Shown: positions 11,816 to 40,802 of the stretch, one piece after another
Layout of the letters: the number at the start of each line of letters is the position of its first letter
Numbering within the stretch: the first letter of the stretch is position 1
Assembly (NCBI RefSeq): GCF_017551775.1
Contig: NZ_JAFZKX010000079.1
Span: 1-64,000 of the forward strand
Direction of reading: 5' to 3'
DNA length: 64,000 bases
Source of the DNA: Fibrobacter sp.
GTDB taxonomy: Bacteria > Fibrobacterota > Fibrobacteria > Fibrobacterales > Fibrobacteraceae
Made by a program: the position numbers and the translations under genes
The notes under the pieces: generated by a model
Seen by the model: only the letters and a program-made list of their open reading frames with translations
What the model was told of the DNA's origin: nothing
Databases searched by the model: none

Positions 11816-12937
11816 ATGAACATCCAACTAAGTATAACCGAACAATGCAACCTCCGCTGTAGTTATTGCTATTACAAAGAATCGCATGCGAAACGCAATG
11901 CCGTAATGAGCGATGATGTCATGGAGGCGACCGTTTCGTTGGCGGTACAAAGGTGCGTTGAACAGAAACAGACGACTTTTAATATCACTTTTTTTGGTGG
12001 CGAACCGCTTTTGCGGGTGGATTTCATCAAGAAGACGGTAAAATTTGCAAAGGACCTGATTAAGAGCCGTAGGGCGGAACTGCCGCGAGATTTTGCACTA
12101 ACCTTTGCCGTCAACACGAATGGAACCCTCTTTACCGATGAAATCGTGAGGTTCCTGAAAAGGGAGAAGTTCACCATCTATCTTTCTGTTGATGGCCCGG
12201 AAAAGAAACACAATATATCACGGAAAACTGTGGACGGGAAGGGGAGTTTCAAGGCGATAAAGCCCTTCATCCCTGCTATGGCGGATTTGAACGCTGTCGT
12301 GTTGATGGTCGTTACGCGCTTGCACGTTCGCGGATTGGCGAATTCCGTAAAGTGGATGTTCGGGCAGGGCTTCAAGCGTGTTTCGACATGCGTGGATTTC
12401 GACGGCTCCTGGAGCAGCGAAGATTTCGATGCGCTTGTAGTTGAATACGAAAAGCTGGCGAGATTCTGGTACAATGCCAAAAGGAAGGGCTCGGATATTT
12501 ATTTGGGCACCATTCAGGACAAGGTCACGATGTGTTTTATGGGTATACGCCAAAAGCTTTATACGTGTTATATGAACCCAGATTCGCTTGCTGTTGCTGC
12601 TAATGGGAATACCTTCCCTTGTACTCGGTTTATCTCCAGCCAGAACGGCGCTCCGTATATTACGGGAAACGTGTTCGATATGCGTAGCGGAATCTACAAG
12701 GGCGTTTTGCCGAGAGATGTTCGCCGTTTCATGGAAAAAGACAGGAAAGAATGTGACGGGTGCGCGATTCGTCAACGTTGCCTTGCGCATGAATGCGGGT
12801 GCACCTCCTTTTATACGACAGGAACGTTGGACAAGGTTTCTCCGGAAGTCTGTACCCACGAACGGATCTTGTGCGCAATTTGCGATGAATATGCGGCAAG
12901 GCTGCAACGGATTTATGGTCCGGAAAGTGTTCTTTAA
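11816..12937 (+). CDS. Radical SAM/SPASM peptide maturase, copy 1
   Basis: A 373-residue enzyme with the radical SAM cluster CX3CX2C at Cys11, Cys15 and Cys18, the FFGGEPLL SAM-binding motif, and a C-terminal SPASM region rich in Cys (PCTRF, then ECDGCAIRQRCLAHECGC and CTHERILCAICDEY) that should hold two auxiliary Fe-S clusters. Such enzymes install thioether, C-C or epimer modifications on ribosomal peptides. The start at ATG 11816 is chosen because it aligns with paralogues at 13526 and 33207. No Shine-Dalgarno is visible. It is followed after 30 nt by a small basic protein that is its likely partner. Substrate and reaction are inferred, not seen. Confidence 0.88.
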   Translation: MNIQLSITEQCNLRCSYCYYKESHAKRNAVMSDDVMEATVSLAVQRCVEQKQTTFNITFFGGEPLLRVDFIKKTVKFAKDLIKSRRAELPRDFALTFAVNTNGTLFTDEIVRFLKREKFTIYLSVDGPEKKHNISRKTVDGKGSFKAIKPFIPAMADLNAVVLMVVTRLHVRGLANSVKWMFGQGFKRVSTCVDFDGSWSSEDFDALVVEYEKLARFWYNAKRKGSDIYLGTIQDKVTMCFMGIRQKLYTCYMNPDSLAVAANGNTFPCTRFISSQNGAPYITGNVFDMRSGIYKGVLPRDVRRFMEKDRKECDGCAIRQRCLAHECGCTSFYTTGTLDKVSPEVCTHERILCAICDEYAARLQRIYGPESVL

Positions 12938-12967: not shown

Positions 12968-13267
12968 ATGGCAAAAATACATGAAAAAACACTGTTGAAA
13001 AAGAGCCGTGTGGCTAAGAGAATCGTTACCGATCCGGCAAAGATGATTACAGCTGCTGAAGCCGAAAAGGTTCGTCATATAATCATAATCATCGATGATT
13101 TTTATGAATTGCTGAAAAAGAAGAAAGGCTGGCCTGGTGATCCGGTGCAGCCGGGTACGGTCATGAACAAGGCCAGAAGGCAGATGGTTACGTCGATGAA
13201 GCAGCTCAGGAAGGCTTCTGTGAGGATGGAGGCTGTAATCAATAGGGATATCAATAGAAGAAAGTAG
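12968..13267 (+). CDS. Small basic partner protein, cassette 1
   Basis: A 99-residue Lys/Arg-rich protein with no cysteine and no signal peptide. The ribosome site lies in a CTAAACAAAGAGGA string that also precedes the partner gene at 14683. The middle (DDFYELLKKKKGWPGDPVQPG) resembles the equivalent region of the 14683 protein (RDFGEILPPWFIRGIPAPE), followed in both by a basic helical tail. It could be the precursor peptide of the preceding maturase or an accessory/leader-binding protein. The lack of Cys argues against sactipeptide or thioether chemistry on it. No known family recognised. Confidence 0.7.
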   Translation: MAKIHEKTLLKKSRVAKRIVTDPAKMITAAEAEKVRHIIIIIDDFYELLKKKKGWPGDPVQPGTVMNKARRQMVTSMKQLRKASVRMEAVINRDINRRK

Positions 13268-13525: not shown

Positions 13526-14647
13526 ATGAATGTTGAATTGAGTATTACCGAACAATGCAACCTCCGTTGCAGCTATTGCTATTATAGAGAAACCCATGCG
13601 AAGCGCTGTGCCGTAATGAGCGATGAAGTTATGGAAGCGACTGTTCGGCTTGCTGTGAAAAGGTCTATAGAACAACAAGATTCATTCCTCAACATTACTT
13701 TTTTTGGTGGCGAACCCCTTCTGCGAATGGATTTCATCAAGAAATCCGTAAAATTTGCAAAAGAGTTGGTCAAGCAGAATGCGGGAAAACTGAAAAAAAA
13801 GTTCATGCTTCATTTTACTGTCAATACGAATGGCACCTTGTTGACGGATGAAATTATAAAATACTTGAAAAAAGAACGATTTGGGGTGTCTTTATCCTTG
13901 GATGGTCCCGAAAAGAAGCATAATATTTCGAGAGTGACCAAAGACGGCAAGGGAAGCTTTGGGGCTATCAAGCCTTTTATTCCGACGTTGGTGGAAATGG
14001 GGGCTCAGGTTATAAGTGTTGTGACTCAACAACACATTAAAGGTCTGGCTAATTCTATTAAGTGGCTTTTTAAGCAGGGGTTTAAGGATGTGGGCGTAGC
14101 CCAAGATTTTAACGGCAAATGGACTGGTGAAAATTTTGACGATTTGATTGTGGAATACGAAAAATTGGCACGTTTTTGGTATCGTTCTAAGAAAGAGGGA
14201 TCTAGCATTCATTTAAGCTTGATTCAGGACAAAGTGTTGATGAATGTCATGGGAATGCGTCAAAAGGAATTCGGATGCTTTATAAATTCTCGTACTCTCG
14301 TTGTGGCTGCTGATGGAAATGTATTCCCCTGTACGCGCTTTATTTCTACCCAGAAGAACGCTCCCTATGTTATTGGAAACATTTTTGATGAAGAGAGCGA
14401 TGTTTATAAGGGCGTATTTCCACCGAAAATCAATCGTTTTGTAAAGAACGATAGGAAGGAATGTGATGGCTGCGCAATTCAATACCGCTGTCTTGCGCAT
14501 GAATGCGGGTGTACTGCGTTCTATTCAACAGGATCGCTTGATAAAATTTCCCCAGAAGTTTGTACGCATGAAAGGATTCTTTGTGCAATTTGTGACGAGT
14601 ATGCCTCAAAGCTTCTTCGTGAGACTTCTCTAGAGTATTTGCTTTAA
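13526..14647 (+). CDS. Radical SAM/SPASM peptide maturase, copy 2
   Basis: A 373-residue paralogue of the enzyme at 11816, the same length and collinear throughout: Cys11/15/18 cluster, FFGGEPLL, and the Cys-rich SPASM tail (PCTRF, ECDGCAIQYRCLAHECGC, CTHERILCAICDEY). The gene is visibly more AT-rich than copy 1 and shares its upstream blocks and downstream partner arrangement, so the pair arose by duplication of a two-gene cassette, followed by drift or separate acquisition. Function is inferred as peptide maturation acting on the small protein encoded 35 nt downstream or on an unlinked substrate. Confidence 0.88.
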   Translation: MNVELSITEQCNLRCSYCYYRETHAKRCAVMSDEVMEATVRLAVKRSIEQQDSFLNITFFGGEPLLRMDFIKKSVKFAKELVKQNAGKLKKKFMLHFTVNTNGTLLTDEIIKYLKKERFGVSLSLDGPEKKHNISRVTKDGKGSFGAIKPFIPTLVEMGAQVISVVTQQHIKGLANSIKWLFKQGFKDVGVAQDFNGKWTGENFDDLIVEYEKLARFWYRSKKEGSSIHLSLIQDKVLMNVMGMRQKEFGCFINSRTLVVAADGNVFPCTRFISTQKNAPYVIGNIFDEESDVYKGVFPPKINRFVKNDRKECDGCAIQYRCLAHECGCTAFYSTGSLDKISPEVCTHERILCAICDEYASKLLRETSLEYLL

Positions 14648-14682: not shown

Positions 14683-15015
14683 ATGGCTAAAACAACCCCC
14701 AAAAAAAGTGAAACAAAGATTGCTGTAGAACGTCAGAAAGCAGCGTCAGCAATCTTTACTAAAAAAGAATATCTCTGGATTAGAGACTTCGGCGAAATTT
14801 TGCCCCCTTGGTTTATTCGTGGTATTCCTGCTCCTGAAATTATTACGAATTTCCAAATGACCGCAGTTCAAAGGAAGCAGTTTAAGACCATGAGTGCCAA
14901 TATCAAGAAACAAGCCAAGGCACTCACCCAAAACATTCAGAGGGTTGCCACTCTTGCAGCGAAAGTTGAAAAAAATGCGGCAAAAGTTTCTAATGCAAAA
15001 GTTGCTAAGAAGTAA
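14683..15015 (+). CDS. Small basic partner protein, cassette 2
   Basis: A 110-residue Lys/Ala-rich, Cys-free protein, counterpart of the 12968 gene. It has a MAK start, a central aromatic/Pro-rich segment (WIRDFGEILPPWFIRGIP), and a long basic, probably helical C-terminal tail (AKVEKNAAKVSNAKVAKK). The basic tail could bind nucleic acid or membrane. The ribosome site GAGGA is embedded in the same CTAAACAAAGAGGA context as its paralogue. Candidate substrate or accessory protein of the maturase; no family recognised. Confidence 0.7.
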   Translation: MAKTTPKKSETKIAVERQKAASAIFTKKEYLWIRDFGEILPPWFIRGIPAPEIITNFQMTAVQRKQFKTMSANIKKQAKALTQNIQRVATLAAKVEKNAAKVSNAKVAKK

Positions 15016-23939: not shown

Positions 23940-23966
23940 AGCCCGGCCTTAGTGTTGGGCTTTTTC
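23940..23966 (+). terminator. Terminator abutting the next promoter
   Basis: AGCCC...GGGCT hairpin and TTTTTC, immediately followed by TATATTTG (23967-23974). Confidence 0.6.
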
Positions 23967-23974
23967 TATATTTG
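23967..23974 (+). promoter_or_regulatory. -10 element of the AhbD-like gene
   Basis: TATATTTG, exact TAnnTTTG match, 22 nt before the ATG at 23997. A GAGG ribosome site lies between. Confidence 0.5.
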
Positions 23975-23996
23975 GGAAAAAAATGAGGTCTATGGC

Positions 23997-24989
23997 ATGA
24001 TTGTCTCTTGGATGACGACGAATAAGTGTAACTTGACGTGCAAGCACTGCTACCAGGATGCGGGTGAGAACAAGGCGGCTGAACTCACGACCGCCGAGGC
24101 GCTCAAGCTCATTGACGAGATTGCCAAGGCCGGATTCAAGATCATGATTTTCAGCGGCGGCGAGCCCATGACCCGCCCCGATATCGTGGAACTGGTGGCG
24201 CATGCCTCTAGCAAGGGGCTCCGTCCGGTGTTCGGCACCAACGGCACGCTCATCACGCACGATTTGGCCTTTGAACTCAAGAAGGCGGGCGCCATGGCGA
24301 TGGGCATCAGCATCGACAGTATCGATCACGACCGCCACAACGATTTCCGCGGTCTCCCGAACGCTTTCGAACTCACGATGATGGGCATCGAGAACTGCAA
24401 GGCGGCGGGCCTCCCGTTCCAGATTCATACGACCATCATGGATTGGAACCAGAACGAAATTTTCGACATCATGGACTGGGTCAAGGAAATCGGCGCGGTG
24501 AACCACCAGATTTTCTTCCTGATTCCCGTGGGCCGCGGCAAGGAAATTGAAGGTCACGCATTGCGCGTCGCCGAATACGAGGGCCTGCTCCGCAAGATCA
24601 TGGAAAAGAGCCGCACGCTCGGCATCCCCGTGAAGCCCACCTGCGCCCCGCAGTTCCTCCGCATCGCGGACCAGCTGGATATCAAGACGCGTTACAGCCG
24701 CGGTTGCCTCGCCGGTCTCGACTACTGCATCGTGAGCCCCATCGGGAAGGTGCGCCCCTGCGCCTACATGATGGAAGAGGCGGGCGACGTGCACGACACT
24801 CCGTTCGACGAAATCTGGGCGAACGCCGAAGTGTTCAAGAAGCTCCGCACCAAGGCCTACGCCGGTGCCTGCGGCAAGTGCAAGTTCAACGACCGCTGCG
24901 GCGGTTGCCGCGCCCGTGCCGCCTACTACCACGACGGCGACTTTATGCAAGAAGACTCCTACTGCGCTTACGGACGCGGGCTTAAGTAA
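23997..24989 (+). CDS. ahbD: Radical SAM/SPASM enzyme of the AhbD/NirJ type
   Basis: A 330-residue enzyme with the radical SAM cluster at Cys11/15/18 (CNLTCKHC), SGGEPMTRPDI, and a C-terminal pattern typical of heme-forming family members: CAPQFLRIADQ, YSRGCLAGLDYCIVSP, PCAYM and CGKCKFNDRCGGCRARA. AhbD converts iron-coproporphyrin III to heme b in the siroheme-dependent pathway of anaerobes; NirJ makes heme d1. The motif run favours AhbD, but NirJ, or an unlinked peptide-modifying relative, cannot be excluded. The ATG at 23997 is chosen over an upstream in-frame start because it places CX3CX2C at the usual distance and follows GAGG. hemB and hemL are nearby, but ahbA-C are not seen. Confidence 0.75.
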   Translation: MIVSWMTTNKCNLTCKHCYQDAGENKAAELTTAEALKLIDEIAKAGFKIMIFSGGEPMTRPDIVELVAHASSKGLRPVFGTNGTLITHDLAFELKKAGAMAMGISIDSIDHDRHNDFRGLPNAFELTMMGIENCKAAGLPFQIHTTIMDWNQNEIFDIMDWVKEIGAVNHQIFFLIPVGRGKEIEGHALRVAEYEGLLRKIMEKSRTLGIPVKPTCAPQFLRIADQLDIKTRYSRGCLAGLDYCIVSPIGKVRPCAYMMEEAGDVHDTPFDEIWANAEVFKKLRTKAYAGACGKCKFNDRCGGCRARAAYYHDGDFMQEDSYCAYGRGLK

Positions 24990-32124: not shown

Positions 32125-33207
32125 CTATTCACATATCGCGGAATCGCAAATCTCCGTGAGCATGCGTTCGTGCGTGCAGACTTCTGCGGATACGCCTTCA
32201 AGGCGCCCTGTGGTATAGAACGACGTGCAGGCGCATTCGTGCATGCTGCAGCGGTAACGGATGTCACAGCCTTCGCATTCTGCCTTGTCGCGGGTGAAAA
32301 ATTCGCGCACCTCGTTACAGGCAATCTCGTCAAATCCGGTAAAAACGTTCCCCTGCAGGTAGGGCGCATTCTCCTTACTGGTTATAAACCGCGAGCAGGG
32401 GAAAATGTTCCCGTTGGTCGCCACCCCGATGTTCCCGTCGTACACGTGACAGGAATATTGCCGGAGCCTCTTGCCCGAAAGCAATAGCTTCACCTTGTCT
32501 TGGATTGTCCCGAGGAAGAACTTTTCGCCCGCCTTGCGGCATTCAAGCCAGTACTGCGCCATCTCGCGGTATTGTTCGGCAAGCCTTTCGAAATCATCTC
32601 CGGTCCATTTGCCGTCGAAGTCTACGGCGGTCGCAATGCTTTTGAAACCTTGTGCGTGCAGCCACTTGATGCTTTCGGCAATCGTGCCGACATGTGCCCG
32701 CGTGATGGTGCTGAGGGCGGTGGCTCCGAGTTTCACGAGTCTTGGAATATTCTTTTCGATATCCTTGAAGCTGCCGGTGCCGTTTACAGTACGGCGCGCA
32801 ATATCCTGGTGGTGTGCGGGGCCGTCGAGCGAAAGGAAAATGGTGAATTTTTCCCTTTCGCAAAAGTCTAGGAATTCTTTGTCGAAAAGCGTGCCGTTTG
32901 TGTTGACTACGAAGTCAAGCCGGAAGTCGCGACTGGCGCGCCCCTGCTCAATCGCATCGGCAACCAGCGCCTTCGCGAAGCCGACGGCGTTGTAGATGGC
33001 GTCTTTGCGCAACAGCGGTTCTCCGCCGAAAAACGAAACGATGAGGTGCTTTTGCCCGAAGGCAAGCGTGCGCTCGAGTCCCGTACGGATTGCCTGCTCA
33101 AGTGTCGCGTCGTCCATGACCGCATGGCGGCTGCCCTGCGTTTTTTTATAATAGCAATAGGAACAGCGCAGGTTGCACTGTTCCGTAAGGCAAAGGATCA
33201 GGTTCAT
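32125..33207 (-). CDS. Radical SAM/SPASM peptide maturase, copy 3
   Basis: A 360-residue paralogue of the enzymes at 11816 and 13526. Cys11/15/18 cluster (CNLRCSYC), FFGGEPLL, PCSRF, a SPASM block ECEGCDIRYRCSMHECAC and VCTHERMLTEICD near the C-terminus. The start at 33207 aligns with the paralogues and overlaps the stop of the upstream lipoprotein gene by four bases (ATGA), so maturase and lipoprotein are translationally coupled. I recall a curated FibroRumin family of radical SAM maturases; membership is not tested here. Reaction unknown. Confidence 0.88.
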   Translation of the reverse strand: MNLILCLTEQCNLRCSYCYYKKTQGSRHAVMDDATLEQAIRTGLERTLAFGQKHLIVSFFGGEPLLRKDAIYNAVGFAKALVADAIEQGRASRDFRLDFVVNTNGTLFDKEFLDFCEREKFTIFLSLDGPAHHQDIARRTVNGTGSFKDIEKNIPRLVKLGATALSTITRAHVGTIAESIKWLHAQGFKSIATAVDFDGKWTGDDFERLAEQYREMAQYWLECRKAGEKFFLGTIQDKVKLLLSGKRLRQYSCHVYDGNIGVATNGNIFPCSRFITSKENAPYLQGNVFTGFDEIACNEVREFFTRDKAECEGCDIRYRCSMHECACTSFYTTGRLEGVSAEVCTHERMLTEICDSAICE

Positions 33208-33836
33208 GCTTCGATGTCGTCGCGCTCGAAGGTGGTGACCATGCTTGCGCCGTAGCAACCGTTCGGGTTGTCGCACATGTGTATATGGAAGCACCGCGCA
33301 TCGTTAGGCGGACAGACTTCTTCGAGGTTTTCCGATGAACTGGAGGGATCCCCCCAATCGGTCCATCCGTTGCGCGATGAACTTGACGGCGGAACGATAT
33401 TGCTGGAGGATTCCGGCGCAATAGCGGAACTCGTCGGGGCTGTCTCCGAACTGCTCGATTCCATAAGGGAAGATATGGCTTCGGCGACGGAGCTGCTGAC
33501 GGGTTCATGGCTTAGCGGGATATCCACGATCTTGCTGGAACTGCTCGGCGTAACCGTCTCGCTGGACGTTTCGGGGCCGGCAGTTTCGCTTGATGTCGCA
33601 GGGGAGGCCGCTTCGCTGGAACTGGTTCCCGTATCCGGCGAGTCGGAGGAAGCGGGAGGAATTACATCTTCGGGGGGCATGTCGCCGCCCAGAGGTTCTT
33701 CGCGGCCTGCCGAAGCGGTGTCGTCACAGGCGTTTAGCGAAAATAAAGCCGCCATGCCGAGAGTTGCCGCTATGGCGCTCTTGGTTGCGACGGAAAACTT
33801 CTGTTCTCCGGTGATTTTCCTTTTTTCGATTTTCAT
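33204..33836 (-). CDS. Ser-rich lipoprotein, candidate maturase substrate
   Basis: A 210-residue lipoprotein (lipobox FSLNAC, Cys37) with a long Ser/Thr/Glu/Pro linker containing IDIPLSHEPVSSS-like repeats, then a short tail with four Cys (EEVCPPNDARCFHIHMCDN, GCYG) ending SMVTTFERDDIEA. The tail motif SM(V/I)(T/S)TFER is shared with the next gene. ATG at 33836 has AAAGGAG seven bases upstream; an in-frame GTG two codons earlier is too close to it. The overlap with the maturase start and the Cys-containing tail make it a plausible modified surface-displayed peptide, an inference. Confidence 0.75.
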   Translation of the reverse strand: MKIEKRKITGEQKFSVATKSAIAATLGMAALFSLNACDDTASAGREEPLGGDMPPEDVIPPASSDSPDTGTSSSEAASPATSSETAGPETSSETVTPSSSSKIVDIPLSHEPVSSSVAEAISSLMESSSSETAPTSSAIAPESSSNIVPPSSSSRNGWTDWGDPSSSSENLEEVCPPNDARCFHIHMCDNPNGCYGASMVTTFERDDIEA

Positions 33837-33848
33837 TGCCACGCTCCT

Positions 33849-34463
33849 TTAAACTTCCACGTCCGTCCTTTCAAAGGTGGATATCATGCTGAACATCATT
33901 CCGCCGCCCGTATCGGGGCAGAGATACATTTGGCCGCCAATGTCCACGGAAGTGCCTCCCGGAGCTCCATGGCATGCATCTTTGAGTTCTTGCTCGGTGG
34001 GCTGGCTGGCCGAACTTGCGGGAACGGATTCTGAACTTGTCGGTGCAATTGCAGAACTTTCGGGCGCAATTGTTGAACTTGTCGGTTCTGCGGCGGAGCT
34101 GCTTGACTCTAGCGCAGATGAAATGGCTTCCATAAGGGAACTGCTTACGGGTTCGTGGCTCAGCGGAATATCGATGGTCTGGCTGGAACTTGCTGGCCCT
34201 TCCGTGAGGCTCGAACTGCTCGGTGCAGTTTCTGCCTGGCTTGAACTGCTAGCTGCTTCAGATGAATTGTTTAAATCGGGAGGGATGTAATCGGGCACGA
34301 CAATTCCCCCGAGAGGTTCGGGTGAGTCATCTTTTGCCGATGTGCTGTCGTCGCAGGCGTTTAATGTGAATGCTGCCGTTATGCCGAGCGTAGCGGCGAT
34401 GGCTCTCTTAGCGGCCGTAGAAAGCGGCTTGTTGCCGAAAACCCCTTTTTTTTCGATTTTCAT
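33849..34463 (-). CDS. Ser-rich lipoprotein, paralogue with same tail
   Basis: A 204-residue paralogue of the 33204 protein: signal and lipobox at the same position (TLNAC, Cys37), the same IDIPLSHEPVSSS block, a Ser/Pro-rich linker and a tail with two Cys (DACHGAPG, YLCPDT) ending SMISTFERTDVEV. The start is MKIEK at 34463, with CAAAGGAG eight bases before it. It is first in a three-gene minus-strand run and stops 12 nt before the next gene. The shared C-terminal motif with variable Cys region fits conserved recognition plus variable core, which I infer rather than see. Confidence 0.75.
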   Translation of the reverse strand: MKIEKKGVFGNKPLSTAAKRAIAATLGITAAFTLNACDDSTSAKDDSPEPLGGIVVPDYIPPDLNNSSEAASSSSQAETAPSSSSLTEGPASSSQTIDIPLSHEPVSSSLMEAISSALESSSSAAEPTSSTIAPESSAIAPTSSESVPASSASQPTEQELKDACHGAPGGTSVDIGGQMYLCPDTGGGMMFSMISTFERTDVEV

Positions 34464-34859: not shown

Positions 34860-36740
34860 ATGAATAAGAAAACAACGTTGTGCGTGGCGCTTGGATGTGC
34901 GACTGCCTTTGCTGCGACAAATTATGACCTTCTTGGCCGTAGCGGTAGCAAGATGAATTCGCCGATGGTTTACAAGGATGCGAACTATCACAAGGTGAAA
35001 AAGAATGGACAGGAAGAGGTCGCTTCGCAGCAGGAAAAGAAGGCTCTGATGAAACTTCCTTCGGGCGTGGTTAACGTTGCTGCTATTGAGGGCGCTTTTA
35101 ATACAAGGGGTTTTGAGTTTGAGAATGGGTATCCCTTGTGTTATTATTTTAGCACGCATACTTCAAGCGGAATTACCAATTATGGTAATTATAAAACGTT
35201 AAACGGTAATGATGGTGGGTCGTATCTCTATGCTTCGAATCCATTCTTTATTCCTATCAATGTAGTGCAAAATTATACACCGAGTGGCTTGCATACTGAT
35301 GGCAATGCTTCTAACGTATATGGTTGGGACCTTACGGAGCAATATACCAACCCGTCTAATGCGGTGCATTTTTCGAATGTAGAAAGCAATGCCAAGAGAT
35401 GGGGGATATCGTGGTTTGACGCCTCGGGCTACAGCCAGTGCCAGGAATGTGGCGATGTCGGCATTTATATGGACGTTGATGCTTTCCCTGTCCGAATGGA
35501 TCCTACAAAGACAGTGAAATATTACGTATATGACGCTAATGATCACATTTTCCCCAACCATGGAACGGAAGTACTCTCGTCAAAGGCGTACAGCATTTTG
35601 CAGGCGACTACTAAAAATGCTTCGATTTACATTACGAACACTTTGCCTGCCAATCCGGCTTCCAGGACCCCGCAGGTGTATGTGGGTCTCCATAACCGGA
35701 AAAATTCCGCTAATGTAGATCATAATGCGGCGGAATTTTATGGAGCCGAAGCGAGAGACTTGGATAACTACATCTACAATAATCGAACAGTAGAAGTTGT
35801 GGCCGCCGGTGATTACTGGATTCGAAACAACAATGGTCAGCTTAATGCGCAGGCTCATGCTGCCAATGCCATTACCGTTGGCGCAATCGATGCCACCAAC
35901 GGAACCATTGCTAGCTATACGTCGAATAAATCCAAATATTGTATGGCTGGCTTGGGCAATTGCGCTAATGGCTATAATGTAGCGACGGCCTCCGATAAAC
36001 CGGAAATTTTCAATTACTCTCATTTCTATATGGGAAATGACCGTAAGAGGACTTATACCAATTGGTTTACGCAGGAGCAGGTCCCGTATGAGCGTACTTA
36101 TGAAGGGACTGAAACTGCTGCTGCCTATACGGCGAACATGGTCGCGGATCTTCTTCGTGCGAATCCGTTCTATCGTTGGCATCCCGAAGTTGTCAAGGCT
36201 ATGATGATCGCTTCTGGCGATGTCAATATAAACCAGCCGTATCCAAGCCATCTGTCTCCGGTAACGACAAAGATCCCGACTTACAAAAGCGTCGTCTTCA
36301 ACCGGTTCTCTTACCAGGCGAATCCCTACGACCAGTTCTTCCATGAGTCGCACTATTGGGTTGGCAAAGTAAGTAAGCTGTCGACTCATCGCATAAATAA
36401 ACGATACGAATTACGATTCTCAGTCCAACGTCCTACGAACAAGAGCAATTTCTCTGCTGCGATTGCGTGGTTGAGCAGTGGAAATGATATTGCCAATTTG
36501 GGCAAGATTCCTCAGGATTTTGACCTCTATGTTTATGAAAATACCTCTGCAGATGTGGATGCTATCAATGTGGACGCGCCCGTGGCGAGATCTACTACCG
36601 GTTACAGAGCCTTCGAGAAAGTTTCCTTCACGTCAAGCGCTCCGTATTTGACTTTCCGCATTGTGCTGTTCGGTGATGATGACAGATCTGAGAATAATGG
36701 ACAGATGGTCCTCGGCTTTGATTTGGCTGCGGCTAACTAA
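34860..36740 (+). CDS. Secreted subtilase-fold protein, copy 1 (Ser to Glu)
   Basis: A 626-residue exported protein (signal residues 1-18). Its middle matches peptidase family S8: NHGTEV (His234, where active enzymes have HGTHV), VVAAGD (Asp318 where the oxyanion Asn is expected), AITVGAID, KPEIFNYSHF, and YEGTETAAAYTANMVA with Glu418 where GTSMAAP has the nucleophile Ser. A C-terminal beta domain (about 490-626, FDLYVYENTS, FEKVSFTSSAPYL) resembles those of other subtilases. QCQECGDVGIYMD may contain the Asp-region. It is first of three tandem paralogues. A catalytically dead, binding role is the simplest inference. Confidence 0.78.
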   Translation: MNKKTTLCVALGCATAFAATNYDLLGRSGSKMNSPMVYKDANYHKVKKNGQEEVASQQEKKALMKLPSGVVNVAAIEGAFNTRGFEFENGYPLCYYFSTHTSSGITNYGNYKTLNGNDGGSYLYASNPFFIPINVVQNYTPSGLHTDGNASNVYGWDLTEQYTNPSNAVHFSNVESNAKRWGISWFDASGYSQCQECGDVGIYMDVDAFPVRMDPTKTVKYYVYDANDHIFPNHGTEVLSSKAYSILQATTKNASIYITNTLPANPASRTPQVYVGLHNRKNSANVDHNAAEFYGAEARDLDNYIYNNRTVEVVAAGDYWIRNNNGQLNAQAHAANAITVGAIDATNGTIASYTSNKSKYCMAGLGNCANGYNVATASDKPEIFNYSHFYMGNDRKRTYTNWFTQEQVPYERTYEGTETAAAYTANMVADLLRANPFYRWHPEVVKAMMIASGDVNINQPYPSHLSPVTTKIPTYKSVVFNRFSYQANPYDQFFHESHYWVGKVSKLSTHRINKRYELRFSVQRPTNKSNFSAAIAWLSSGNDIANLGKIPQDFDLYVYENTSADVDAINVDAPVARSTTGYRAFEKVSFTSSAPYLTFRIVLFGDDDRSENNGQMVLGFDLAAAN

Positions 36741-36751
36741 TTTTTCTGATG

Positions 36752-36813
36752 TTCCCCTGCTTGCGTAGCGTATTCATCCTTGTGATGATTACCCTTGAGT
36801 GGGGGATTTTTTT
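36752..36813 (+). terminator. Terminator of subtilase-like copy 1
   Basis: Long hairpin with TCCCC at 36753-36757 and GGGGGA at 36801-36806, then seven T residues. Its sequence is closely repeated after copy 2. Confidence 0.6.
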
Positions 36814-36899
36814 ATTCATACATCATAAAAGATAAAAGTGTTTTTTTGTTGGGTGGGAACAAAAAACAAACTTTGTTTGTATAATACAAGGAGTAATAA

Positions 36900-38780
36900 A
36901 TGAAAAAGAAAATAACAGTGTGCGTGGCGCTCGGATGCGCAGCAGCCTTTGCCGCGACAAACTATGACCTTCTTGGCCGTAACGGTAGCAAGATGAATTC
37001 ACCGATGGTTTACAAGAATGTAGACTATCACAAGGTGAAAAAGAATGAGCAGCAGGAACTTGCGTCTCCGCAAGGGAAAAAAGCGCTGATGAGAAGCCCG
37101 ACGGGCTTAAACGGGCCCATCGCCATATCGGGCGTTTTCGATACAGAAGGGCTGGCTTATGGCAGGGACGGATCGCCGTATTGTTTTTCTCTGAAAAGAT
37201 ATTATTCCGATCAGTCCCTTGAGTCTATAGATGCATCGGTTAATGCCTATTTGGATATGGCCAACAGCGTCTTTATCCCTGTTAATATGGCAAAAAATGT
37301 AACGCCGGCTAATTTGTTTAGTGGTTCCACCCCAATTTCTTACGTAACGCACTATGACGTTTCGGAACAATATGATGGCAGCGCATTCGCTCCCACATCT
37401 TATTGGGATGTAGAGTTTGATAATCTACCTAATTCTGCTGGACTTAAGAGAGGGGATATTAGCTGGTGGTTCGACGCCAATTATAACCAGTGTCAGGAAT
37501 GTGGTGATGTCGGCCTCTATATGGATATCGGTGCGAAGCCTGTCCGGTTGGATCCCTCGAAGACGTTGCAGTATGCCCTATATGAAAGTAATCCTTCTTT
37601 TGTCCCCAATCCTGAAAGGGAAGTGATTTCTTCAAAGGCGTATAGCATATTACGTGAGACGACTAAGAATACGGCAATCTATATTACGGGTCAGTTGCCC
37701 GAAGGCCCGAAATATAAGAATCCGCAGGTGTATGTTGGCCTTCATAACCGAAAAGATGATTCCGGCATGTCCCAAGAGGCCGCGACCTACTATACTGCCG
37801 AGGCTCGGGATCTTGACAACTATATCTATGCGAATCGAACTGTAGATGTGGTGGCTGCCGGTAATCGCAGGATTCGGAACAATCTCGGCCAGCTCACTCC
37901 GCAGGGTCATGCGGCCAATGCCATTACGGTCGGGGCTGTTGATGCTGCTAATGGGCAGATTGCAAGCTATACCTCGAATAAATCGAATTATTGCGCCATG
38001 GGTATTGGCCATTGCTCCAATGGCCAGTATACAATTGAAGGATCCAGCAAGCCTGAAATTTTCAATTATTCCGAATTCAAGATGCCGGGTGATATGAAGA
38101 GAACGTATAACCACTGGTATTCGAATAATTCGCATAATCCGTCCCCGAATTATGACGGAACTGAAGCGGCGGCGACCTATACTGCAAATATGGTGGCGGG
38201 ACTCCTGAGAGTTAATCCGTTCTACCGTTGGCACCCTGAGGTGGTCAAGGCGTTGTTGCTTAATGCTGGCGAAATCAATATAAATAATCCATATTATTTG
38301 TACGATTTCACTCCGGTGACGACGAAAATCCCCTCTTATAAGAGCACCGTCTTTAACCGTTTCCATCATGGAGAATATTTCCACGATTCGCGTTATTGGA
38401 TTGGCGATTGGCCGAGACTGAGCACGCATATTGTCGCGATGAAATCTGAACTCAGGTTTAGCGTCAAGCGTCCTTCGAATAAGCACAATTTCTCTGCCGC
38501 AATCGCATGGTTGAGCAGCGGTAATGATATCGCCTCCATTGGAATGCTTCCGCAGAATTTTGACCTGTACGTCTATGACAATAATTCAAGCGATGTGAAT
38601 AACATCGATATCAATAACTACAGGGCAATCTCCAACAGCGAAAGAAACGCCTTCGAAAAGGTGACCTTCTGGTCGAACGCACAGTATCTTACGTTCCGTA
38701 TCGTACTCAAGAGCGAACATACGCGCACCGAGAATCCCAGACAGGCTGTTCTCGGTTTCGACCTGGCTGCGGCCAACTAA
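36900..38780 (+). CDS. Secreted subtilase-fold protein, copy 2 (Ser to Glu)
   Basis: A 626-residue paralogue of 34860, the same length. Signal residues 1-18; the 60 residues after it are nearly identical to copy 3. The His position is lost (PNPEREV where copy 1 has NHGTEV), the oxyanion Asn is kept (VVAAGN, Asn322), KPEIFNYSEF is present and the nucleophile is Glu422 (YDGTEAAATYTANM). The conserved CGDVGLYMDIGAKPV region and C-terminal beta domain are retained. A leader with TATAAT and AAGGAG precedes it. Loss of both His and Ser argues against protease activity. Confidence 0.78.
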   Translation: MKKKITVCVALGCAAAFAATNYDLLGRNGSKMNSPMVYKNVDYHKVKKNEQQELASPQGKKALMRSPTGLNGPIAISGVFDTEGLAYGRDGSPYCFSLKRYYSDQSLESIDASVNAYLDMANSVFIPVNMAKNVTPANLFSGSTPISYVTHYDVSEQYDGSAFAPTSYWDVEFDNLPNSAGLKRGDISWWFDANYNQCQECGDVGLYMDIGAKPVRLDPSKTLQYALYESNPSFVPNPEREVISSKAYSILRETTKNTAIYITGQLPEGPKYKNPQVYVGLHNRKDDSGMSQEAATYYTAEARDLDNYIYANRTVDVVAAGNRRIRNNLGQLTPQGHAANAITVGAVDAANGQIASYTSNKSNYCAMGIGHCSNGQYTIEGSSKPEIFNYSEFKMPGDMKRTYNHWYSNNSHNPSPNYDGTEAAATYTANMVAGLLRVNPFYRWHPEVVKALLLNAGEININNPYYLYDFTPVTTKIPSYKSTVFNRFHHGEYFHDSRYWIGDWPRLSTHIVAMKSELRFSVKRPSNKHNFSAAIAWLSSGNDIASIGMLPQNFDLYVYDNNSSDVNNIDINNYRAISNSERNAFEKVTFWSNAQYLTFRIVLKSEHTRTENPRQAVLGFDLAAAN

Positions 38781-38791
38781 TATTTTTGATA

Positions 38792-38854
38792 TTCCCCTGC
38801 TTATACTGTGTATTCTTCCTTGTGGTGAATGCCCTTGAGTGGGGGATTTTTTTT
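38792..38854 (+). terminator. Terminator of subtilase-like copy 2
   Basis: TCCCC...GGGGGA long hairpin plus an eight-T tract, nearly the same as the one at 36752. Confidence 0.6.
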
Positions 38855-38891
38855 CAAAAAACTTTACTTGTTATAATATAAGGAGTGACAA

Positions 38892-40802
38892 ATGAAAAAG
38901 AAAATAACAGTGTGCGTGGCGCTTGGATGTGTAGCAGCCTTTGCCGCGACAAATTATGACCTTCTTGGCCGTAACGGTAGCAAGATGAATTCACCGATGG
39001 TTTACAAGAATGTAGACTATCACAAGGTGAAAAAGAATGAGCAGCAGGAGCTTGCTTCTCCGCAAGAGAAAAAGGCACTGATGAAAAAAAGCCCGACGAG
39101 GTTGAATGGGCCCGCCGCTATCGAGGGGGCGTTCAATACAAGTGGACTCCAATATGGTAACGGATCAACTCAATATCCGTTTTATTTAAAAAGGTATTAT
39201 TCAAATGGAATCACCAACTATGGCTACTATAAACAGCTTGAAGGTTCTAGTAGTGCGTATTTGCCGGTTTCCAACAACGTTTTTATTCCAACAAATATCG
39301 TGCGGAATTATACGCCGAGTGGCATGAATAATGATAATCCTGCTATGATTGCGTATGGTTACGACCTTGATGAACAATATTTTGGCAATTTCCAGAATTC
39401 CACCTCCTTCCCGGGATTGGAATACAATCTTGCCAAGAAGGGGGACGTTGAGTGGTGGCTTTATAGTTATAATTATAACCAGTGCCAGGAATGTGGAGAT
39501 GTCGGTATCTATATGGACGTTGATGCATTCCCTGTTCGTCTGAACCCGTCTAAAGTTGTTCGCTATCTCAAAAACGAAAGTGACCATATTTTCGCGAATC
39601 AAGAAACAGAAGTGCGTTCGTCAAGGACTTATAGCATACTTCAGGCGACGACTACGACGAGTACTTCGAATAATGCCCCGATTCTTGTCACTAATACCTT
39701 GCCACAAAATCCGGCTTCCAGAAGTCCGCAGGTGTATTTGGGCGTCCATAATCGTCCGAACAGTCCCGATCTCTCCAGTGATGCGGCGAAGTATTATGGG
39801 GCCGAGGCGAGGGACTTGGATAATTACATCTACGAGAACCGTACTGTAGAAATCGTGGCTGCTGGCGATAACTGGCATTCGTCGACCAATGCTCCGCTTA
39901 ATGCGCAGGCGCATGCGGTCAATGCCATTACGGTGGGAGCTGTGGATTCGAAGAGCAAGAGGATAACAGACAACACGTCGTATATTACCAAATATTGTAA
40001 CAAAGGAATGGGAAATTGCCTCGGTTCTGAAAACTACTATGCCGTAGAAGGTGCCGAAAAACCTGAAATTTACAATTACACCAATTTCTATATGGATAAT
40101 GATAGGAAGAGGACGTATTCTACCTGGTTCATGCACGTGCCCTATGTCTATGAACCCTATTATAGAGGGACGGAATCGGCGGCGACCTATACGGCGGGCA
40201 TGGTTGCAGGACTCTTGAAGGCGAATCCTTTCTACCGCTGGCATCCCGAAGTTGTCAAGGCGGTGATGCTTAATGCTGGTGAAAACAATATCGCTACTCC
40301 GTATCCGCATAATCACACCCCGTTGACGACAAAGGTGCCGACATACAAAAGCGTCGTGTTCAACCGTTTCCACAATAATCAATGGAATGAGAATGGCCCG
40401 TTCCATGAATCGCGCTATTGGATAGGCGATTGGGATTGGATGTATACGCACGATAACGACTACCAGGGAGAAATCCGCTTTAGCATCAAGCGCCCGGACA
40501 ACAAGTACAATTTTTCTGCGGCCCTTGCTTGGTTGGTTAGCGGTGATGACATTGCCCGTTTCGGGATTATCACGCAAGATTTTGATATGTTTGTGTATGA
40601 AAATACTTCTTCCGATGTGGATGCAATCAATGTCGATAACTATAAAGCAAACGCATATCCTATCGGAGAGCCTTATGGTAAGGTAGCGTTTACGTCTAGT
40701 GCGCCGTACTTTACGATTCGCATCGTGTTCAATTTTGATTACCAGTGGTCTGATAATTACAAACAGGTTGTTTTGGGCTTCGACTTGGCTTCGGTAAATT
40801 GA
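38892..40802 (+). CDS. Secreted subtilase-fold protein, copy 3 (Ser to Glu)
   Basis: A 636-residue paralogue. The first 60 or so codons are almost base-for-base the same as copy 2 (36900), while the rest has diverged, indicating recent gene conversion or partial duplication. The His position reads NQETEV, the oxyanion position Asp (IVAAGD), KPEIYNYTNF is kept, and the nucleophile is Glu428 (YRGTESAATYTAGM, with Ser only at the next residue). QCQECGDVGIYMDVDAF and the C-terminal beta domain match the other copies. The leader has TATAAT and AAGGAG. A strong terminator follows at 40825. Confidence 0.78.
   Translation: MKKKITVCVALGCVAAFAATNYDLLGRNGSKMNSPMVYKNVDYHKVKKNEQQELASPQEKKALMKKSPTRLNGPAAIEGAFNTSGLQYGNGSTQYPFYLKRYYSNGITNYGYYKQLEGSSSAYLPVSNNVFIPTNIVRNYTPSGMNNDNPAMIAYGYDLDEQYFGNFQNSTSFPGLEYNLAKKGDVEWWLYSYNYNQCQECGDVGIYMDVDAFPVRLNPSKVVRYLKNESDHIFANQETEVRSSRTYSILQATTTTSTSNNAPILVTNTLPQNPASRSPQVYLGVHNRPNSPDLSSDAAKYYGAEARDLDNYIYENRTVEIVAAGDNWHSSTNAPLNAQAHAVNAITVGAVDSKSKRITDNTSYITKYCNKGMGNCLGSENYYAVEGAEKPEIYNYTNFYMDNDRKRTYSTWFMHVPYVYEPYYRGTESAATYTAGMVAGLLKANPFYRWHPEVVKAVMLNAGENNIATPYPHNHTPLTTKVPTYKSVVFNRFHNNQWNENGPFHESRYWIGDWDWMYTHDNDYQGEIRFSIKRPDNKYNFSAALAWLVSGDDIARFGIITQDFDMFVYENTSSDVDAINVDNYKANAYPIGEPYGKVAFTSSAPYFTIRIVFNFDYQWSDNYKQVVLGFDLASVN

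Follow-up and report, generated by a model that had tools for sequence, protein, structure and literature searches.

The genes considered here lie on the minus strand of a 64-kb window of Fibrobacter sp. DNA, the whole stretch that was analysed; Fibrobacter is a rumen bacterium. They form one operon in the order lipoprotein B (33849-34463, 204 aa), its paralogue lipoprotein A (33204-33836, 210 aa) and a radical SAM/SPASM enzyme of what we call type 1 (32125-33207, 360 aa), which has a CNLRCSYC core motif and the SPASM cysteines and lacks an RRE domain. The ATG of the enzyme shares bases with the TGA stop of lipoprotein A (ATGA). Shine-Dalgarno sites are present for both lipoproteins and none is visible for the enzyme, which is probably translationally coupled because its start overlaps the preceding stop and has no such site of its own. 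No protease or exporter was seen within the operon, and promoter and terminator scans gave no signal greater than in shuffles. A preliminary description of this DNA had placed a third paralogous maturase across an ATGA from a Ser-rich lipoprotein and behind a paralogue of the latter, and its coordinates agree with those given above. The genome carries four paralogous enzymes, three of them inside the window. Divergent from the operon, three tandem paralogous subtilase-like proteins (Pfam Peptidase_S8) occupy 34860-40802 on the plus strand. A further radical SAM/SPASM protein, at 23952-24989 (+), lies above the NirJ2 cut-off (521 bits, TIGR04055) and is unrelated to the operon.

Both lipoproteins conform to the bacterial lipoprotein pattern, with an LNAC lipobox whose Cys37 follows a hydrophobic stretch (33726-33737 in A, 34353-34364 in B, both minus strand), as had been noted before. 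Four elements are conserved: an MKIEK start within an extended signal-peptide n-region, a candidate leader (33822-33836 in A, 34449-34463 in B, minus strand); the lipobox; a DIPxS block in a Ser-rich linker; and a Cys segment plus C-terminal tail. An alignment of 54 lipoproteins shows no variation, in B numbering, at M1, I3, E4, K5, G27, C37, I99, S102, C182, S192, M193 and T196. Paralogues of one genome are 70% identical in the tail and 71% in the middle block, compared with 32% in the Cys segment. The block common to A and B had been quoted as IDIPLSHEPVSSS, which is exact for B only; what both carry is DIPLSHEPVSSS (33489-33524 in A, 34137-34172 in B, minus strand), preceded by V in A and by I in B. 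The lipobox Cys stands at position 36-37 in partner lipoproteins and at 15-29 in genuine control lipoproteins from a 400-kb region of another genome of the genus, so the long n-region is a property of the partner lipoproteins. None of the 54 matches any family in Pfam or NCBIfam. Comparison of the lipoprotein with the PDB, by sequence and by fold, gave no match.

The tail itself reads SMVTTFERDDIEA in A (33207-33245, minus strand) and SMISTFERTDVEV in B (33852-33890, minus strand), which bears out the common ending reported earlier. Its consensus is SM(V/I)(T/S)T(F/Y)ExxD over 12-13 residues; positions S0, M1 and T4 show no variation, and S, T, F/Y, E and D are invariant or nearly so. SMVTTFERDD alone is encoded by 12 different DNA versions, with T4 taking all four Thr codons, and such a number of synonymous versions points to selection at the protein level. 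For the invariant tail Ser (window 33222-33245 and homologues), 84 of 86 genes use AGC and two use AGT. TCN Ser codons are common in the genus, yet the tail Ser is AGY only, and the Ser of DIPxS is likewise restricted to AGY. A DNA-level explanation of this usage was dropped, as AGY alone is expected for a strictly kept Ser; a codon lock at such a residue likely accounts for the AGC usage in the tail.

Linkage of enzyme and tail across the genus

We searched 80 Fibrobacter species genomes with the enzyme and, in a second search, with a profile built from the C-terminal 50 residues of 37 lipoproteins; enzymes at least 63% identical are counted as type 1. The type-1 enzyme occurs in 46 of the 80 genomes. 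These coincide exactly with the genomes that have the tail, which is absent from the remaining 34. Each of the 94 strong tail matches (E up to 5.5e-10) stands beside a type-1 enzyme; two weak extra matches (E about 8e-4) are large lipoproteins aligned over the Cys segment only. The preliminary description had proposed to follow this linkage, which would fail if the tail turned up equally where no maturase was near; the tail profile found no tail without the enzyme in the 80 genomes of the genus. Directly upstream of every one of the 49 type-1 enzymes lies a tail lipoprotein, in one to five tandem copies, the nearest usually at -4 nt from the enzyme (an ATGA overlap in most of the 49). Forty-four of these enzymes were detected automatically, and five more go with the tail SMVTTFEST-D(V/I)DV.

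That the maturase and the lipoproteins form one functional unit is supported. Judged from the sequences, there is good support for the lipoproteins being partners of the type-1 enzyme and, in all likelihood, its substrates, and the constant position of the enzyme directly behind one to five tail lipoproteins suggests that it acts on envelope-anchored proteins rather than on a released peptide. In our opinion it is very improbable that the tail acts as a signal for sorting or secretion, with the radical SAM enzyme merely a co-operonic neighbour. The tail is short, conserved and C-terminal, and its context is that of a lipoprotein, but it contains no hydrophobic segment, is found on no other protein in the 80 genomes and never occurs apart from the enzyme.

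The enzyme and its nearest known relatives

Pfam Radical_SAM and SPASM both score above gathering in the enzyme, and C11, C15, C18, C253, C271, C311, C314, C320, C325, C327 and C344 are invariant among 69 sequences. The structural model (mean pLDDT 94.5) aligns best with CteB (5wgg; Z 36.3, rmsd 2.6 over 335 residues, 25% identity), covering CteB residues 94-448 only, and further fold matches are anSMEcpe (Z 32) and ChlB (Z 31). CteB, a SCIFF thioether maturase (PDB 5WGG/5WHY), shares the radical SAM plus SPASM fold; its substrate, however, is a short released peptide, whereas the Fibrobacter partner is a lipoprotein. The Fibrobacter enzyme begins directly at the radical SAM core and has no N-terminal RRE of the kind found in CteB. 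The CteB residues before 94, which we take to be that RRE domain, have no counterpart in it.

Among curated families the best match is the ranthipeptide maturase PapB (NF047865), which aligns over nearly the whole enzyme with 200.3 bits; membership was rejected, the cut-off being 340 bits. The PapB substrate PapA has CX3D repeats (PMC9413430), whereas the Fibrobacter tail has no Cys. FibroRumin, named after Fibrobacter and Ruminococcus and also a radical SAM/SPASM peptide maturase, had been put forward for comparison, and this comparison does not hold: the enzyme reaches 38.2 bits against a cut-off of 400 for TIGR04136, matches the core alone of the 458-position model, and no protein of the genome passes. 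In TIGR04133/TIGR04134 a radical SAM/SPASM family is likewise paired with a lipoprotein family. The TIGR04133 enzyme (cut-off 425 bits) is absent among the best 25 family matches, a list that ends at 47.6 bits, and the TIGR04134 lipoprotein (cut-off 39.8 bits) has no match at the locus. The pairing of radical SAM enzymes with lipoproteins is thus already in NCBIfam, in models that miss these proteins. To our knowledge, work on radical SAM maturases has dealt almost entirely with released peptides. A literature search with incomplete coverage of journals returned no paper describing these lipoproteins or their pairing, and a survey of anaerobe genomes reported no known RiPP class in the sole Fibrobacteres genome that it examined (PMC4289311).

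The fold match with anSMEcpe and the invariant, AGY-encoded tail Ser could be read as signs that the enzyme oxidises this Ser to formylglycine, in the manner of the anaerobic sulfatase maturases. We consider this the most improbable of the readings weighed here. The enzyme scores 97 bits against the 349-bit cut-off of that family (TIGR03942), which was rejected as an assignment, and the sulfatase motif C/S-x-P/A-x-R is absent from the tail. In anSMEcpe an Asp, presumably the catalytic base, follows a SPASM Cys (YPCD), whereas the aligned residue of the Fibrobacter enzyme is Ser/Thr, which argues against formylglycine formation.

Cys segment, tail and candidate modification

Immediately before the tail lies the variable Cys segment, with four cysteines in A (C175, C182, C188 and C194; 33255-33314, minus strand), where it is a probable disulfide knob, and two in B (C164 and C182; 33918-33974, minus strand), where a helix plus beta hairpin is predicted; the count of four versus two is the one given before. 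The AlphaFold2 model of lipoprotein B has a disordered linker, an ordered region at about 151-190 (block pLDDT 77-91) formed by the helix and the hairpin bearing C164 and C182, and a low-confidence tail except for a short predicted helix at 199-202. Across the genus, 86 distinct C-terminal regions were grouped into 26 families. Only even numbers (2, 4 or 6) occur in 24 of these, and three Cys in two closely similar families; within families the number changes from 2 to 4 to 6. Under equal odds so many even families would have a probability near 5e-6, a value that serves as a guide only because the families are related. A similar C...VYLC segment is found in large Fibrobacter lipoproteins not encoded near the enzyme, for example CGESNEGELVYVKEKSSVYLC, and the basal substrate L105 has no Cys in the corresponding segment. 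A regular expression for a knob ending in C.[DN]G.W had no match in control DNA.

These features bear on a ranthipeptide-like reading, in which the tail would be for recognition and the Cys segment would be a variable core whose cysteines are joined to nearby residues by thioethers. Both the nearest curated family, PapB, and the nearest fold, CteB, are thioether makers, one Cys is invariant, and 75 of the 86 sequences have a D/E within the CX0-6 spacing of the acidic partner that PapB accepts (PMC9413430), counted from the conserved Cys; some Cys with a D/E within seven residues can be found in every one of the 86. The exact CX3D/E arrangement, however, is present in 23 of the 86 only, and 11 have no D/E in reach of the conserved Cys. 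The PapB-like CXnD rules are no decisive guide here. With the even Cys numbers, the predicted ordered knob, the comparable Cys-pair segment in lipoproteins remote from any such enzyme and the Cys-free L105 against it, we hold thioether formation in this segment to be unlikely. A disulfide knob appears more likely than a thioether core, given the even numbers, the segment that the model predicts as folded and the similar segment found away from the enzyme; disulfide pairing is the most economical reading. The logic of conserved recognition plus variable core seen in the preliminary description is supported only in part. What is invariant is the MKIEK n-region, the DIPxS block and the tail. The assignment of the Cys segment as the modified core is not supported, in view of the even Cys numbers, the predicted knob, the enzyme-free occurrences and L105.

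We favour, with a probability of roughly one half, a substrate-enzyme operon in which the enzyme modifies the tail of the nascent lipoprotein and the product stays anchored in the envelope. Both the substrate and the site of modification are inferred from sequence. The cytoplasmic enzyme would bind the nascent lipoprotein via the extended n-region, the DIPxS block or both, a mode that we propose because the enzyme has no RRE. It would then alter non-Cys residues of the C-terminal tail, most likely by a cross-link or an oxidation begun by hydrogen abstraction. The lipoprotein would be exported by Sec and lipidated at Cys37, so that knob and modified tail could be carried on the flexible linker in the envelope, the knob cysteines pairing as disulfides. 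One enzyme may in this way serve several paralogous lipoproteins that differ in the knob. That the tail bears the modification rather than merely binding the enzyme is a guess that could go either way; its conservation is just as well compatible with recognition as with modification. A membrane-anchored envelope lipoprotein instead of a released peptide, which had also been suggested earlier, is plausible in view of the lipobox Cys37 in A and B, the long Ser-rich linker and an operon in which neither a protease nor an exporter was seen.

Enzyme types and distant relatives

In a tree of 89 enzymes, types 1, 2 and 3 each fall on one side of a branch with support from 100/99 to 100/100, and the enzyme clades correspond one to one with substrate architecture. 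Type-2 enzymes (L002 and others) lie behind Ser-rich lipoproteins that have no tail and contain repeated units such as AGDPIE and SGEVIPP. Type-3 enzymes have no lipoprotein, and a small Lys-rich protein is usually next. Both remaining paralogues in the window, at 11816-12937 (+) and 13526-14647 (+), are of this type, neither with a lipoprotein partner. The absence of the tail from type-2 and type-3 partners counts against the tail-modification model. Four basal enzymes are found behind lipoproteins ending in SMxxxVGHIQIPL-like sequences, which have the SM in common with type 1. In other Fibrobacteraceae genera (L214-L218) the lipoproteins carry beads like PLSGDPAMPESSSS and LGGEIQMPESSSS, in which the unit alternates with a Ser linker.

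Beyond this family we collected 69 distant relatives of the enzyme at 25-35% identity from Clostridia, Bacteroidota, Verrucomicrobiota, Myxococcota, Spirochaetes and others. By a strict test about 31 of the 69 have a lipoprotein directly upstream; 43 have one anywhere in the search range, some of them by chance. Since distant relatives also lie directly behind lipoproteins, this looks like an uncatalogued enzyme-lipoprotein family. In the clostridial partners 43 of 67 Gly fit the unit L[AED]G[ED]xx[VI], compared with 0.8 in shuffles, these being the sequences on which the motif matrix was trained. Applied to types 1 and 3, that matrix found no site, so that no single target unit common to all types emerged. 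A looser Gly-unit pattern, picked after the data had been seen, is about fourfold enriched in the type-1 linker; Gly units are also enriched in other Fibrobacteraceae and in type 2, and not in control lipoproteins.

By analogy with these relatives, the modified site could lie in the Gly units of the type-1 linker instead, which is conceivable because the distant relatives have a different repeated unit, LxG[DE]xxV, and the type-1 linker is enriched in weaker Gly units. The tail would then be a docking element only, and the modification would be placed in the linker, be it in the DIPxS block, which is conserved much as the tail is, or in Gly units such as EPLGGDMPP and EPLGGIVVP. The clostridial fit and the spread of enriched Gly units speak for this. 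Yet the clostridial matrix yields no type-1 site, the patterns were chosen with the data in view, and the Gly unit, present in 63 of 93 type-1 lipoproteins, is missing in about a third, so that we regard a purely docking tail, too, as rather unlikely.

Returning to enzyme action on the lipoprotein itself, a broader proposal can be made tentatively, and we lean slightly towards doubting it. A widespread and uncatalogued family of radical SAM/SPASM enzymes, akin to CteB and PapB and present in Fibrobacterota, Clostridia, Verrucomicrobiota, Bacteroidota, Myxococcota and others, may act on whole lipoproteins. It would recognise the extended signal-peptide n-region and place modifications that do not involve Cys either in short repeated units or in a tail at the C-terminus. 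The products would be post-translationally modified displays anchored in the membrane, not released peptides. If real, a conserved unit of enzyme and lipoprotein, in which one enzyme has several substrates and which has relatives in many phyla, would imply that radical SAM chemistry also decorates the envelope. The Fibrobacter locus offers a compact and tractable system for its study, with three genes, a conserved tail of 13 residues and natural variants of enzyme and substrate in dozens of species.

Several smaller observations concern the partners of these enzymes. Units of the form LxG[DE]xxV (LAGDVTV, LEGGAPV, LMGDVPV) are repeated in lipoproteins upstream of the distantly related enzymes at L147, L148, L150, L161, L171, L173, L184, L185, L189, L198 and L202; the clostridial ones have a common n-region like MKIxPxKxYKKPLYA. 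Related enzymes in Clostridia, Bacteroidota and Myxococcota adjoin partner lipoproteins of a second class, whose motif resembles HGxGRGxxGCxSVxxPxxLSEEEA (L144, L145, L152, L156, L165, L172 and L195). The small Lys-rich proteins next to the type-3 enzymes of the window contain GWPGDPVQPG (12968-13267) and WFIRGIPAPE (14683-15015), and in other species, too, most type-3 enzymes are followed by similar proteins. Near some type-3 loci there are also long radical SAM-like ORFs of about 700 aa (L113, L115 and L114) with weak similarity to the enzyme of the operon.
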